Source of the DNA: Candidatus Desantisiibacteriota bacterium
Lineage (GTDB): Bacteria; JACRDZ01
Direction of reading: 5' to 3'
Length of the DNA stretch: 6,855 bases
NCBI GenBank assembly: GCA_016209155.1
Contig: JACQWU010000149.1
Coordinates: 1-6,855, forward strand
The translations under genes and the position numbers were made by a program. The notes under the pieces were generated by a model. The model saw only the letters and a list, made by a program, of their open reading frames with translations, searched no databases and was not told the origin of the DNA. Positions 974-6,794 of this stretch are shown here, piece by piece (positions within the stretch are counted from its first letter, which is position 1; the number at the start of each line of letters is the position of its first letter).

Positions 974-1109
974 AAATACAATGCTTGGCAAATCGTAAAA
1001 AATGCTGTTTGGCAGCTTTTGCTGAAGTCGGAACTTTTCTCCAATGAATTGGAAATCCCCAAAAACATGTTGCATTTGATCTTATTTGGAGTTGATCGAA
1101 AATATGGGA
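940..1109. other. Intergenic, no gene seen
   Basis: No credible coding frame lies here after the CobQ tail remnant. A small hairpin (GCTG 1004-1007, CAGC 1013-1016) followed by four T could be a weak terminator for cobQ. A second small inverted repeat, TCCAAT-GA-ATTGGA, lies at about 1040-1053. Neither is convincing on its own. Confidence 0.4.
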
Positions 1110-1196
1110 GGTAGGAGCAATCTCCTGATTGCGATATTTATAAATTCGTTACAGCAATTACAATTACAGCATCGCAGTCAGGAGACTGCTCCTACC
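1110..1196. repeat. REPIN-like inverted repeat, copy 1
   Basis: Two 26-nt arms (1110-1135 and 1171-1196) are inverted and separated by 35 nt. They are complementary at 24 of 26 positions. Each arm, read inward, is GGTAGGAG, four variable bases, CTCCTG, the reverse complement of those four bases, then CGAT. Each arm can thus form its own hairpin (G-nnnn stem with a CTCCTG loop), and the two arms can form a long cruciform or RNA hairpin. The GTAG head followed by a hairpin is the hallmark of REP elements mobilised by RAYT (TnpA_REP) transposases, and an inverted pair is a REPIN. No RAYT gene is present in the window. It lies in a convergent gap, where it could also act as a transcription barrier. 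Confidence 0.85.
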
Positions 1197-2939: not shown

Positions 2940-3028
2940 GGTAAGAGTGATCTCCTGATCACGATTTTTTAAGGAAATCTGTATTTCTATTGATTAAAAA
3001 TTATCGCTGACAGGAGTCACCTCCTACC
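2940..3028. repeat. REPIN-like inverted repeat, copy 2
   Basis: This element has the same design as the one at 1110-1196. Two 26-nt arms (2940-2965 and 3003-3028) are separated by 37 nt. The fixed blocks GGTA(G/A)GAG, CTCCTG and CGAT are kept, while the four-base stem differs: TGAT/ATCA in the left arm and GTGA/TCAG in the right arm (one mismatch). The arms have drifted apart more than in copy 1, with 17 of 26 positions complementary, yet the internal stems persist. It lies 15 nt past the tetR stop codon and may act as a 3' hairpin for that transcript. Confidence 0.8.
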
Positions 3029-3043
3029 TTTTATTCCGATTTT

Positions 3044-3298
3044 CTATTTATTGGCTCTATTTATCCATGCCGGATTCTTTATAAGAGCAGAGATTGCTGC
3101 TTTTTTCGCGGTATCACCTGTTAAACCCTGTGTGCTTTCCAAAAAACCAGTCATTCCCGCAACTGCTTCATCAAATGATTTCATACTTCCATCCGGTCTT
3201 GCGCAATATTTACAATAATTTTTGCTTTCATCTCCATTAGGATAATCCTCTTTTGTTCTTAAGGGCATACCACAGCAAATACATTTTTCATTTTTCAT
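3044..3298 (-). other. Possible separate zinc-ribbon protein by internal initiation
   Basis: Within the tetR frame, ATG at 3298-3296 is preceded by a perfect AAGGAG with nine-nt spacing. Starting here gives an 84-residue protein, MKNEKCICCGMPL..., which corresponds to the free-standing form of this zinc-ribbon family. Either the site is a relic of two once separate genes whose intervening stop was lost, or both a long repressor and a short zinc-ribbon protein are made from one frame. Which one holds cannot be told from sequence alone. Confidence 0.45.
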
Positions 3299-3853
3299 TT
3301 TTTGTTTCTCCTTAACGGTTAAAAAAGATATGATTTTTCTTATATGATCTTCCTTTACCTTATTTTTATCAAACATATAATCACCGAAAAAAGTTAAATA
3401 AACCATAGCCCCCTGCCATAAGATTGTCCGGGTAAAACTCTTATCCGACCATTTATTAAATGCTTCCATTATTTGACCATTTATGGCAGCAAAATATGTT
3501 ATCACCTCCTCCTTTGTCTCCTCATTGAAATTTGAAAATCCTGCAAGAAGCGATCTATATAGAGGCCAATTTTTTTTAAGTATTTTCGTATAGGAATTTA
3601 AAAAGGTTTCTAATGATTCAGCTTCTCTTACTTCGAAATATAATGAATCTGTTATCCTTTTAACTAAATTTATAACTACATTTAATACAATTTCATCTCT
3701 GTTTTTAAAATGAAAAAATATCGTACCATGTGCAAGCCCGGCTTTTTTGGTAATTTCAATTGTTGAAATATTAAATCCTTTTTCAATAAATAATTTTTCG
3801 GCAGTTTTTAAAAGCTTTTTTTTTGTATTCTCTTTTTCTTTAGATCGTTTCAT
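3044..3853 (-). CDS. TetR-family repressor fused to a C-terminal zinc ribbon
   Basis: Residues 10-60 are a typical TetR DNA-binding domain: TAEKLFIEKGF, then the helix-turn-helix ITKKAGLAHGTIFFHFKNRDE. Residues 65-180 are the helical ligand and dimer domain, which does not reveal the ligand. Residues 186-269 form an unrelated module with Cys pairs C191/C194 and C214/C217 (CICCGMPL, YCKYCARPDGSM), matching the small putative zinc-ribbon family usually seen as free proteins of about 85 residues. TetR proteins usually end near 190 residues, so the join looks like a fusion. The join falls exactly at a Met codon with a strong internal ribosome site. The ATG at 3853 has CAGGA upstream. The divergent region carries a near-consensus promoter overlapped by palindromes, so autorepression is likely. 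Whether it also controls the hydrogenase genes is unknown. Confidence 0.9.
   Translation of the reverse strand: MKRSKEKENTKKKLLKTAEKLFIEKGFNISTIEITKKAGLAHGTIFFHFKNRDEIVLNVVINLVKRITDSLYFEVREAESLETFLNSYTKILKKNWPLYRSLLAGFSNFNEETKEEVITYFAAINGQIMEAFNKWSDKSFTRTILWQGAMVYLTFFGDYMFDKNKVKEDHIRKIISFLTVKEKQKMKNEKCICCGMPLRTKEDYPNGDESKNYCKYCARPDGSMKSFDEAVAGMTGFLESTQGLTGDTAKKAAISALIKNPAWINRANK
3308..3313 (-). promoter_or_regulatory. Internal Shine-Dalgarno site within tetR
   Basis: AAGGAG on the minus strand is a full match to the anti-Shine-Dalgarno core, nine nt before the in-frame ATG that begins the zinc-ribbon module. It is stronger than the site in front of tetR itself (CAGGA, about 11 nt from the ATG). 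Confidence 0.55.
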
Positions 3854-3879: not shown

Positions 3880-3913
3880 ATTGAGTTAAAACTCAATGAG
3901 CATATACTCATTG
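3880..3913. promoter_or_regulatory. Tandem palindromic operator (probable TetR binding site)
   Basis: Two palindromes share four bases. The first, 3880-3897, is ATTGAGTT-AA-AACTCAAT with perfect 8-bp arms. The second, 3894-3913, is CAATGAG-CATATA-CTCATTG with perfect 7-bp arms. Their centres are 15 bp apart, so four GAG/CTC half-sites lie in a row. The second palindrome overlaps the -10 element and likely start site of the tetR promoter, a standard position for autorepression. Binding by the adjacent TetR protein is inferred from location and symmetry. Confidence 0.75.
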
Positions 3914-3938
3914 TATTTATTTTAAACTATTATGTCAA
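3910..3938 (-). promoter_or_regulatory. Sigma70-type promoter of tetR
   Basis: On the minus strand TTGACA (3938-3933, perfect consensus), a 17-nt spacer and TACAAT (3915-3910, five of six) point at tetR. Transcription would begin near 3903, inside the palindromic operator, leaving a leader of about 50 nt. Confidence 0.75.
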
Positions 3939-4082: not shown

Positions 4083-4111
4083 TTGACATTTTTATTTATG
4101 TATACTATTAT
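4083..4111 (+). promoter_or_regulatory. Sigma70-type promoter of the hydrogenase operon
   Basis: TTGACA (4083-4088, perfect), a 17-nt spacer and TATTAT (4106-4111, five of six) point rightwards. Transcription would start near 4118, giving a leader of about 60 nt before the beta-subunit gene. No clear activator or redox-regulator box was recognised around it. Confidence 0.7.
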
Positions 4112-4177: not shown

Positions 4178-5248
4178 ATGAAATATAAAATAATTAAGAT
4201 TAATGATTTTAAATCAAGATTGCGTTTACTTCTTTCAAATTATGAATTTTGGGGTGTTACAGAGAAAGTAAAAGTTCCTACGACAGGTCCGAAATTTTCA
4301 TTTGAAAGAATAAATGATATCGAAAATATAAGCTGGGATTATGATTTTACTATACTTCCTCCGAAAAAAATATTATTTCCGCCTGTACAGACGCTTATGA
4401 AATATAGAGAAAATGAATATATTCCGCCTCAAAAGCAGTATCCGGAATTGGATAAAAATATTATTATATTCGGGGTTCATTCTTACGATATTGTCGCTTT
4501 AAACATACTTGATATTTGTTTTCTTGCTGAAAATGCGGACCCGTATTATAAACAAAAAAGAGATAAAACCATCTTGATAGGTATTGAACATAAACCGAAT
4601 GAATATAATTTCAGCAAAGATATGCAGACACATCAAATAGAAAAGGGATTTGATCTTTTTCTTTATAAAATTAATGACGATTATATAATCGCTGTTGGTT
4701 CGGAAAAAGGTAAAATTATTTTAGATGAATTAGAAGTTAAGGAAGAAGCAAGCATAGATCAGGTTTTTGCTCTAAATGATAAACGTTATGCTGATGCTGA
4801 AGCTATTCCTTATAAGATGAAAATGACAAATCATGAGCTGCCTAATATATTGTCAAATAGCGAAAATAATAAAATGTGGGAGGAAATAAATGAAAAATGT
4901 TTTTCCTGCGGTTCATGTAATTTAGTTTGTCCCACCTGTTATTGCTTTGATGTCAGAGATAATCCTGATATAGATTTAAAAACAGGTTTCAGAAAGCGTT
5001 ATTGGGATGGATGTATGCTGCGGGAATTTGCAATTGTTGCCGGAGGAGAGAATTTCAGACCCAATGCCAGGCATCGCCTTATGCATAGATTTTTCAGAAA
5101 AGGATGGTATTTAAAAGAAAAACTTGGCGGAAAACTTGCCTGTGTCGGATGCGGGAGATGTTCTCAAACCTGTAAAGCGGAAATAAATATTTTAGACTGC
5201 TTTAACAAATTAAAAGAGGAATATAATGCAACCTGCAGAATCAGTTAA
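4178..5248 (+). CDS. hydB: [NiFe]-hydrogenase (group 3b type) beta subunit, Fe-S protein
   Basis: This cytoplasmic electron-transfer subunit belongs to the HydB/AsrA family and would pass electrons between the hydrogenase small subunit and the flavin subunit. Residues 1-200 are the family's characteristic N-terminal region (ILPPKKILFPPVQTLMKY, IIFGVHSYDIVALNILD). Residues 241-256 (CFSCGSCNLVCPTCYC) and 322-332 (CVGCGRCSQTC), with further Cys at 279 and 341, supply ligands for two [4Fe-4S] clusters. The segment GFRKRYWDGCM and the Arg/His-rich NARHRLMHRFF are typical. AsrA of anaerobic sulfite reductase is a close relative, but the downstream hydrogenase small subunit settles the assignment. 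The ribosome site is weak (AAGAGA 12 nt upstream) and the leader carries a direct repeat of ATTCAAAT (4152-4159 and 4170-4177). The 3' end overlaps the next gene by 23 nt, implying translational coupling. Confidence 0.92.
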   Translation: MKYKIIKINDFKSRLRLLLSNYEFWGVTEKVKVPTTGPKFSFERINDIENISWDYDFTILPPKKILFPPVQTLMKYRENEYIPPQKQYPELDKNIIIFGVHSYDIVALNILDICFLAENADPYYKQKRDKTILIGIEHKPNEYNFSKDMQTHQIEKGFDLFLYKINDDYIIAVGSEKGKIILDELEVKEEASIDQVFALNDKRYADAEAIPYKMKMTNHELPNILSNSENNKMWEEINEKCFSCGSCNLVCPTCYCFDVRDNPDIDLKTGFRKRYWDGCMLREFAIVAGGENFRPNARHRLMHRFFRKGWYLKEKLGGKLACVGCGRCSQTCKAEINILDCFNKLKEEYNATCRIS

Positions 5249-6053
5249 TTATATACCTGAACAGGCAGAAATTCTGGATACAAAAAATTTCACTGAGAAT
5301 GAAAAATTTTTTCGTATAAGATTAAAGAGTGAAAAATGTTTGGGTCATATCCCCGGACAGTTTGTTGAATTATCTATACCCGGGATAGGTGAAGCTCCCA
5401 TATCCTTATGTTCTTCTCCCACTGAAAAAGATTTTTTTGAAGTTTGTATTCGTAAAACAGGAAATGTTACAAATGCAATTCACAAATTGAAAACAGGCGA
5501 TACAATCGGAATAAGAGGTCCTTTTGGTAATGGATTTCCTGTTGAGAGGTTAACTCAAAAAAATATTATTATTGTTGGCGGCGGATTAGGTGTGGTCCCT
5601 TTGCGTTCATTAATAAATTATATTTCAGATAACAGACTGGATTATAAAAATATATATTTGCTGTTTGGAACAAAAACTCCGGGTTCTTTATTATTCTACG
5701 ATGAATTTGTAAAAAAAGCGGATAAACATACAACATATATGAACATTGTTGATTATCCGGATAAAGGCTGGACAGGAAGAGTAGGTGTTATTACCACATT
5801 AATTCCAGAAGTAGATATAAATTTCAGGGAAGCATATTCTGTTATAGTCGGACCGCCGATAATGTATAAATTTGTTATAAGGGAATTAGTATCCTATGGT
5901 ATGCCTAAGGAACATATATTTTTATCTCTTGAAAGACGTATGAAATGCGGTTTGGGGAAATGCGGACATTGTCAGATGCATAATCTTTTTACATGTCAGG
6001 ATGGACCTGTTTTTGATTATGCACAACTTGAAAATATAAAAGGTGCTATTTAA
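5226..6053 (+). CDS. hydG: [NiFe]-hydrogenase (group 3b type) gamma subunit, FAD/NAD(P)-binding
   Basis: This is the NAD(P)H-oxidoreductase subunit of the complex (HydG/AsrB; ferredoxin-NADP reductase fold), which exchanges electrons between NAD(P) and the Fe-S chain. It should not be confused with the radical-SAM HydG of [FeFe]-hydrogenase maturation. Residues 43-65 (PGQFVELSIPG, APISLCSSP) are the FAD-binding barrel. GDTIGIRGPFGNGF (91-104) follows. IIIVGGGLGVVPLRSL (114-129) is the nucleotide-binding turn, and IVGPPIMYKF (207-216) is the C-terminal NAD(P) domain motif. C241, C246, C249 and C257 (MKCGLGKCGHC...C) bind a [2Fe-2S] cluster. NADP versus NAD preference cannot be read reliably. 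The start is well supported by AGAGGA five nt upstream. It overlaps hydB by 23 nt and its TAA abuts the ATG of the next gene. Confidence 0.93.
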   Translation: MQPAESVNYIPEQAEILDTKNFTENEKFFRIRLKSEKCLGHIPGQFVELSIPGIGEAPISLCSSPTEKDFFEVCIRKTGNVTNAIHKLKTGDTIGIRGPFGNGFPVERLTQKNIIIVGGGLGVVPLRSLINYISDNRLDYKNIYLLFGTKTPGSLLFYDEFVKKADKHTTYMNIVDYPDKGWTGRVGVITTLIPEVDINFREAYSVIVGPPIMYKFVIRELVSYGMPKEHIFLSLERRMKCGLGKCGHCQMHNLFTCQDGPVFDYAQLENIKGAI

Positions 6054-6794
6054 ATGGAAAAAGTTAAACTTGCTTTTTTTGAGTTTACAAGCTGTGAAGG
6101 ATGCCAGCTTGAGGTTATAAATCAGGGACAGGAACTTTTAGAATTATTACAGTATGCGGATATAGTTACATTCAGAGAAGCTATGAGCGAGAAAAGCGAT
6201 GATTATAGTATAGCCATAGTAGAAGGCAGTATCTCTAATGATGAGCAGGAAAAGAAATTAATAGATATAAGATCAAAAGCAAAAATATTAATCGCAATCG
6301 GAGCATGCGCGGTATCGGGAGGAGTAAATAGTATTAAAAATCACTACCCCGCGGGATTTGTTAGAAAATACGTATATGGAGATAAATTTGAAAAATTTCC
6401 AAGTTTTAATGCAAAACCCCTAAGTTCATTTGTGAAGGTTGATCATAATATCAGGGGATGCCCACCCAGAACAAAAGAATTTTTATCTATTTTAGGAGAG
6501 ATCCTTTTAGGTAAAAATCCATTTGTTCCGGACTATCCGGTATGCGTTGAATGTAAGATGAAAGAAAATCCGTGTTTGTTTGATCTTGGTAAGATCTGCC
6601 TTGGGCCTGTTACCCGCGCCGGATGTGATGCCTGGTGTCCGTCATACGGAGACAAATGTTCCGGGTGCAGAGGTCTTATTACAGAAGCCGCGATAGATGC
6701 GCACAGAGAAATATTGTTAAAATATAAACTGACAACAAAACAAATTCTTAATGAATATAATCTATATGGAACTCATTCTGAAGATTTTGAATAA
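6054..6794 (+). CDS. hydD: [NiFe]-hydrogenase (group 3b type) delta (small) subunit
   Basis: This is the small subunit that carries electrons from the Ni-Fe site of the large subunit through three [4Fe-4S] clusters. Ligands of the proximal cluster are C14 and C17 (TSCEGCQLE), C85 (IGACAVSGG) and C136 (RGCPPRTKE). Eight further Cys (164, 167, 174, 182, 191, 195, 202, 205), including CLGPVTRAGCDAWCPSYG and CSGCRG, fit two more [4Fe-4S] clusters as in group 3 enzymes. There is no twin-arginine signal peptide, so it is cytoplasmic. At 246 residues it is full length. ATG follows the hydG stop codon directly, with AAAGG about ten nt upstream. In the familiar beta-gamma-delta-alpha order the large-subunit gene should follow, but the window ends 61 nt later. 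Confidence 0.94.
   Translation: MEKVKLAFFEFTSCEGCQLEVINQGQELLELLQYADIVTFREAMSEKSDDYSIAIVEGSISNDEQEKKLIDIRSKAKILIAIGACAVSGGVNSIKNHYPAGFVRKYVYGDKFEKFPSFNAKPLSSFVKVDHNIRGCPPRTKEFLSILGEILLGKNPFVPDYPVCVECKMKENPCLFDLGKICLGPVTRAGCDAWCPSYGDKCSGCRGLITEAAIDAHREILLKYKLTTKQILNEYNLYGTHSEDFE

Follow-up and report, generated by a model that had tools for sequence, protein, structure and literature searches.

The operator published for RamR, a TetR-family regulator of Salmonella and Klebsiella, is atgagtgcgtactcactcat and includes the palindrome TGAGTN4ACTCA (PMC4310594). Zinc ribbons of the family PF12674 (Zn_ribbon_2) are encountered as free-standing proteins named 'zinc ribbon domain-containing protein', and our literature search brought up nothing direct on the function of PF12674 or on TetR-zinc ribbon fusions. 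Here, we analysed a stretch of 6,855 nucleotides, referred to as the window, in which a TetR part and such a zinc ribbon are encoded by one gene. We consider it probable that the product of this gene represses its own promoter, that it originated from an old fusion of operon neighbours, and that the Cys4 module serves as its sensor or partner. The gene and its two parts are located as follows:

3044 to 3853, minus strand: fused TetR-zinc ribbon gene, 269 aa (single open frame, Pfam, six full-length orthologues)
3299 to 3853, minus strand: TetR part, residues 1-185 (Pfam, PDB matches, AlphaFold2 helices 2-178, TetR tree)
3047 to 3298, minus strand: zinc-ribbon module, residues 186-269, with Cys191, Cys194, Cys214 and Cys217 (Cys4 alignment, stand-alone model, free homologues)

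The fusion of a TetR repressor to a zinc-ribbon module, as claimed by the earlier note, was confirmed, the single frame of 269 aa containing both Pfam domains above their cut-offs: TetR_N at residues 14-57 with 40.6 bits (curated cut-off 24) and PF12674 at residues 191-241 with 43.5 bits (cut-off 22.5). Within the TetR part, the HTH is found at approximately residues 9-57, followed by what appears to be an all-helical ligand/dimer body extending to about residue 178; PDB matches of this part were 3vpr, 2eh3, 6azh, and RamR. The full-length AlphaFold2 model was mediocre (pLDDT 73) and weak in residues 130-190, where the TetR body ends and the linker follows. In this model the body has helices up to residue 178, and TetR-family structures were the best matches, with TM-scores to the query of 0.36-0.5 and a pLDDT of 49-67 for residues 121-190. 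The zinc-ribbon module modelled alone reached a pLDDT of 91.8 and comprised the cysteine region and three helices, by which it would be an independent domain. Its three-helix tail ends in NPAW, and both CxxC pairs (four Cys) as well as the Trp of the tail are invariant in 39 modules. Searches by sequence, Foldseek and VIA-align for a solved structure of the module yielded no convincing match; such a weak search is no proof of a new fold.

Elsewhere, the module is mostly free-standing, also in agreement with the earlier note, and in genome G156 a TetR and a zinc ribbon are encoded by adjacent separate genes. Free variant modules were present in 25 of the 132 genomes of one phylum. The window's own genome, G000 (79% complete), contained one PF12674 match, and no second copy of the module was found in it. 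No relatives were found in the viral collection, and the plasmid collection contained solo modules only, in large Escherichia and Klebsiella records. These solo Zn_ribbon_2 genes (L159, L160, L150) are located in PLSDB 'plasmid' records of 0.8-5.4 Mb, which look like chromosomal or mislabelled sequences. A further regulator-type domain occurs together with the module in L054 (Zn_ribbon_2 and GyrI-like). Filifactor FA519, described in the literature, is a different kind of protein, made up of a coiled coil and a zinc ribbon at its C-terminus.

Six full-length fused orthologues with 42-49% identity to the window protein were detected in WOR-3/TA06 genomes, five by the bacterial genome scan and the sixth (L073) among 147 genomes of the WOR-3/TA06 phylum. 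The HTH core and the Cys4 are invariant in all seven fusions, which are distributed across two candidate phyla, and in the TetR tree the seven fused TetR bodies form one clade (support 100/97). A fresh fusion by loss of a stop codon, or a missed stop, had been put forward in the earlier note; this is not supported, given the six distant full-length fused orthologues in another candidate phylum, whose TetR bodies form one clade with that of the window. Judged from these comparisons, the TetR-zinc ribbon fusion looks old, not fresh. The fused gene was absent from three further genomes of the window's own phylum, and a search of 386 broader relatives with PF12674 revealed no further TetR fusion; its distribution is therefore patchy. 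The linker from residue 178 to the first cysteine (Cys1) comprises 12 residues in the window and 19-23 residues in the six orthologues; it is thus 7-11 residues shorter than those of the others, with no clear sequence in common.

At the gene's own promoter we found a conserved tandem operator, predicted from sequence, which is new in that the earlier note had missed it:

3910 to 3938, minus strand: fused-gene promoter (11 of 12 consensus positions matched in a promoter scan; geometry found in eight genes)
3882 to 3910, no strand assigned: predicted tandem operator with a 15-bp period (recurs in the seven fused genes and in the G156 split operon)

The promoter consists of TTGACA (3938-3933), 17 nt, and TACAAT (3915-3910), and its -10 box abuts the operator, which is composed of two 14-bp palindromes, TGAGTTAAAACTCA (3882-3895) and TGAGCATATACTCA (3897-3910). 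Common to all seven fused genes is CTTGACA...TAtaAT followed directly by TGAGTN4ACTCA-N-TGAGTN4ACTCA, with perfect or near-perfect palindromes. The same promoter-operator geometry is present in eight genes, CTTGAC and both palindromes being fixed in position. When seven genomes were searched with a 20-base pattern allowing up to three mismatches, the fused-gene promoter was recovered in each of them together with one other place, in G062, while the reversed control pattern gave no match in six genomes and one match in the seventh. The operator therefore marks mainly the fused gene itself, as is characteristic of an autorepressor. The extra site in G062 (L158 1501-1529; G062:C48:27704-27732) has a full promoter and tandem operator with the geometry seen at the fused gene. 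It precedes a gene for a secreted PSII_BNR/Por_Secre_tail protein with a C-terminal sorting domain, a candidate second target by its sequence.

We infer that the fused protein binds the operator at 3882-3910 and represses. A TetR/RamR-like dimer would bind the two tandem 14-bp palindromes directly after its own -10 box, and the bound one-component repressor would stop transcription of its own gene until it is released. The Cys4 zinc ribbon at the C-terminus would be an ancient and permanent partner derived from a neighbour gene of the same operon. Most likely, the module would set the DNA affinity or the oligomeric state of the repressor in response to zinc or thiol-redox state; such tuning of DNA binding is our conjecture. 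The main product would be the fused protein, and a second, free zinc-ribbon product starting from ATG186 may be made in the window species only. This reading of the gene as an autorepressor rests on seven fused sequences and one split operon.

The gene neighbourhood was also analysed. In the window, a cysteine desulfurase gene is located downstream of the fused gene, and a hydrogenase/sulfhydrogenase operon is divergent to it. The latter (4178-6794, plus strand) encodes beta, gamma and delta-like subunits and is accompanied by a promoter-like site at 4083-4111; its matches to the NCBIfam models HydB/ShyB, HydG/ShyC, and HydD were all under the equivalog cut-offs. Control of this operon by the fused protein was considered and is not favoured, the promoter-like site being about 170 bp away from the operator; no second TGAGT operator was found at 4083-4111. 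Downstream of the fused gene in WOR-3 lie genes whose products are probably secreted: a protein with FlgD_ig/Por_Secre_tail in L039, similar ones in L038, L040, and L073, and an esterase first in L036. In L036, L039, and L040 there is an overlap of a few bases, and this arrangement suggests that the WOR-3 fused gene may form an operon with the secreted-protein genes. A gene like that for the DUF4097 protein of L039 is divergent in L036, L038, L039, and L040. The neighbours thus differ between the window and WOR-3; therefore, the operator stays with the gene while the neighbours change. Two intergenic regions of the window (1109-1196 and 2940-3029) contain dispersed inverted repeats that are related to each other (GGTAGGAGCAATCTCCTGATTGCGAT / ATCGCAGTCAGGAGACTGCTCCTACC, with variants) and may represent a REP/MITE-like element in this genome.

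In G156, which is a distant genome, the two parts are encoded by separate genes. At locus L061, the tandem operator (835-863) lies after a similar promoter and before a TetR gene of 193 aa (890-1471), which is followed by a co-oriented zinc-ribbon gene of 80 aa (1489-1731); the 17 nt between the TetR stop and the zinc-ribbon gene contain AAAGGAG. The G156 TetR, 25% identical, is sister to the seven fused TetR bodies (94/97), and the G156 module is the free module nearest to that of the window, with 56% identity. G156 excepted, no TetR was found beside other free modules in about 50 loci with flanks of about 1.5 kb. The simplest history suggested by these data would be a two-gene operon under one operator, the genes of which were later fused. 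At the sequence level, then, the fusion, its age, the conserved promoter and operator and the split operon are all apparent.

The split operon also bears on a reading which we hold to be somewhat unlikely, namely that the module is the output and not the sensor. In that case the TetR body would sense a small molecule and thereby set the dose of a zinc-ribbon protein with its site of action elsewhere, the fused repressor carrying its effector along. This would fit the G156 operator, behind which only the TetR and the zinc-ribbon gene are found, and the occurrence of the operator almost nowhere else in the genomes; with the operator nearly confined to the fused-gene promoter, regulation would therefore chiefly be of the gene itself. 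However, an effector fixed to a DNA-bound repressor would be an odd means of delivery, and the WOR-3 fused gene runs into a gene for a secreted protein, which provides another output.

With respect to the history of the gene, a single fusion has to be weighed against two fusions, one in the window lineage and one in WOR-3/TA06, that would both have started from one two-gene operon and of which the more recent event would have left ATG186 and its Shine-Dalgarno sequence (SD) as a relic. The window module indeed shares more identity with the free module of G156 (56%) than with any fused one (42-48%), the seven fused modules group together in the module tree with weak support (52/53, or 88/89 with fewer rows), pairing of the window module with that of G156 was not rejected (p-AU 0.23), and the linkers differ in length and sequence. 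On the other hand, the seven TetR bodies form a strong, all-fused clade, the best module tree groups the fused modules too, and a single event is simpler. We regard two independent fusions as unlikely.

At the join of the two parts, a possible internal start was found:

3308 to 3313, minus strand: Shine-Dalgarno-like AAGGAG at the join (sequence; rarity and synonymous resampling)
3296 to 3298, minus strand: ATG of codon 186, in frame, where translation of the zinc-ribbon module might begin internally (sequence)

In the join DNA, GTTAAGGAGAAACAAAAAATG, AAGGAG (3313-3308) is followed after a 9-nt spacer by the ATG of codon 186, which leaves 84 residues. As background for internal starts, 314 kb of stretches from the window's genome (33% G+C) were used, in which AAGGAG was present 4-11 nt 5' of 2 of the 1,325 internal ATGs. 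The pairing energy with the anti-SD of the 16S tail was -7.1 kcal/mol for M186 versus -4.0 kcal/mol for the gene's own start, and in the same 314 kb an equal or better energy was reached by 4.3% of the internal ATGs and by 25% of the gene starts. When the codons of residues 178-185 were resampled synonymously, 2.9% of the trials yielded AAGGAG and 4.0% an equal energy; the join site was chosen after being seen, and a chance of about one in 30 is not decisive. AAGGAG-ATG at the join is unusual at approximately the 3-4% level, not overwhelming. Hence, of the 'perfect' internal ribosome site described in the earlier note, the arrangement AAGGAG-9 nt-ATG stands, whereas the attribute 'perfect' has to be qualified in view of the background counts and the resampling. 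The proposed gene-within-gene was weakened as well: the site is present in the window, but an ATG with a Shine-Dalgarno sequence at the join was found in none of the six fused orthologues, all of which are distant (42-49% identity). Such a lack in fused orthologues is the outcome that the earlier note had itself named as refuting its idea.

ATG186 is located five codons before Cys1, where free-standing modules also start, and its SD-ATG arrangement resembles theirs. In both alternative frames a TAA occurs at the SD or immediately 5' of it, and the join contains a T6 run. With its short linker, the TAAs around the SD and the position of ATG186, the window join looks like a former intergenic stretch, and therefore the reading as a dual-product gene stays alive. 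According to this reading, which appears unlikely, the full repressor and a free 84-aa zinc ribbon from ATG186 would both be made, as were the two proteins of the ancestral operon. It is favoured by a site that outscores the start of the full-length gene and is seldom seen at internal ATGs, by the location of this site at the point from which free modules are translated, by the separate co-oriented module gene of G156, which has AAAGGAG in the 17 nt that follow the TetR stop codon, and by a linker shortened by 7-11 residues with TAAs in the alternative frames, as expected of a former intergenic stretch. It is opposed by the lack of an ATG with SD at the join in all six orthologues and by the chance of about 3% for the SD in the resampling. 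A self-repressing gene with two products in one frame, whose internal start would have been retained from an ancestral two-gene operon and whose free zinc ribbon could mix with the repressor or titrate it, is slightly less likely still. That an assembly or sequencing error joined two real genes in the contig, for which the T6 run and the closing of the other two frames at the join might speak, is extremely improbable given six independent genomes with the full-length fusion at 42-49% identity, conserved on both sides of the join.

Two independent connections, a fused protein and a shared operon, tie PF12674, an uncharacterised family, to a regulator. The precise predicted DNA target of 29 bp makes the function of the regulator testable. 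In addition, the locus offers a small and clear example of how neighbours in an operon merge into a single protein, in which the unfused state, the operator and possibly a leftover start codon are visible.

Compared with known systems, the fused protein resembles RamR, which was the best solved match of the HTH of orthologue L036, and shares with it the TGAGT half-sites; this is a resemblance in DNA reading, not orthology. Unlike the fused protein with its tandem operator at its own promoter, RamR is without a zinc module and one inverted repeat controls romA-ramA, which is absent as neighbour of the fused gene, a cysteine desulfurase gene and the hydrogenase operon being found there instead. 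Free-standing PF12674 proteins have the same Cys4 pattern and, in a variant subgroup, the PAW tail, but are without a DNA-binding part. In L058 and L067 (XRE-type HTH_3 and Zn_ribbon_2), a second, unrelated DNA-binding domain is combined with Zn_ribbon_2. As in the fused protein, the Zn_ribbon_2 is placed C-terminal to the DNA-binding domain; however, the HTH is of the Cro/C1 type, the Zn_ribbon_2 is canonical and not the variant, and there is no TetR body. The split operon of G156 shares the geometry of tandem operator and promoter, a sister TetR and the nearest module (56%), and differs in consisting of two genes 17 nt apart and in a TetR with 25% identity.
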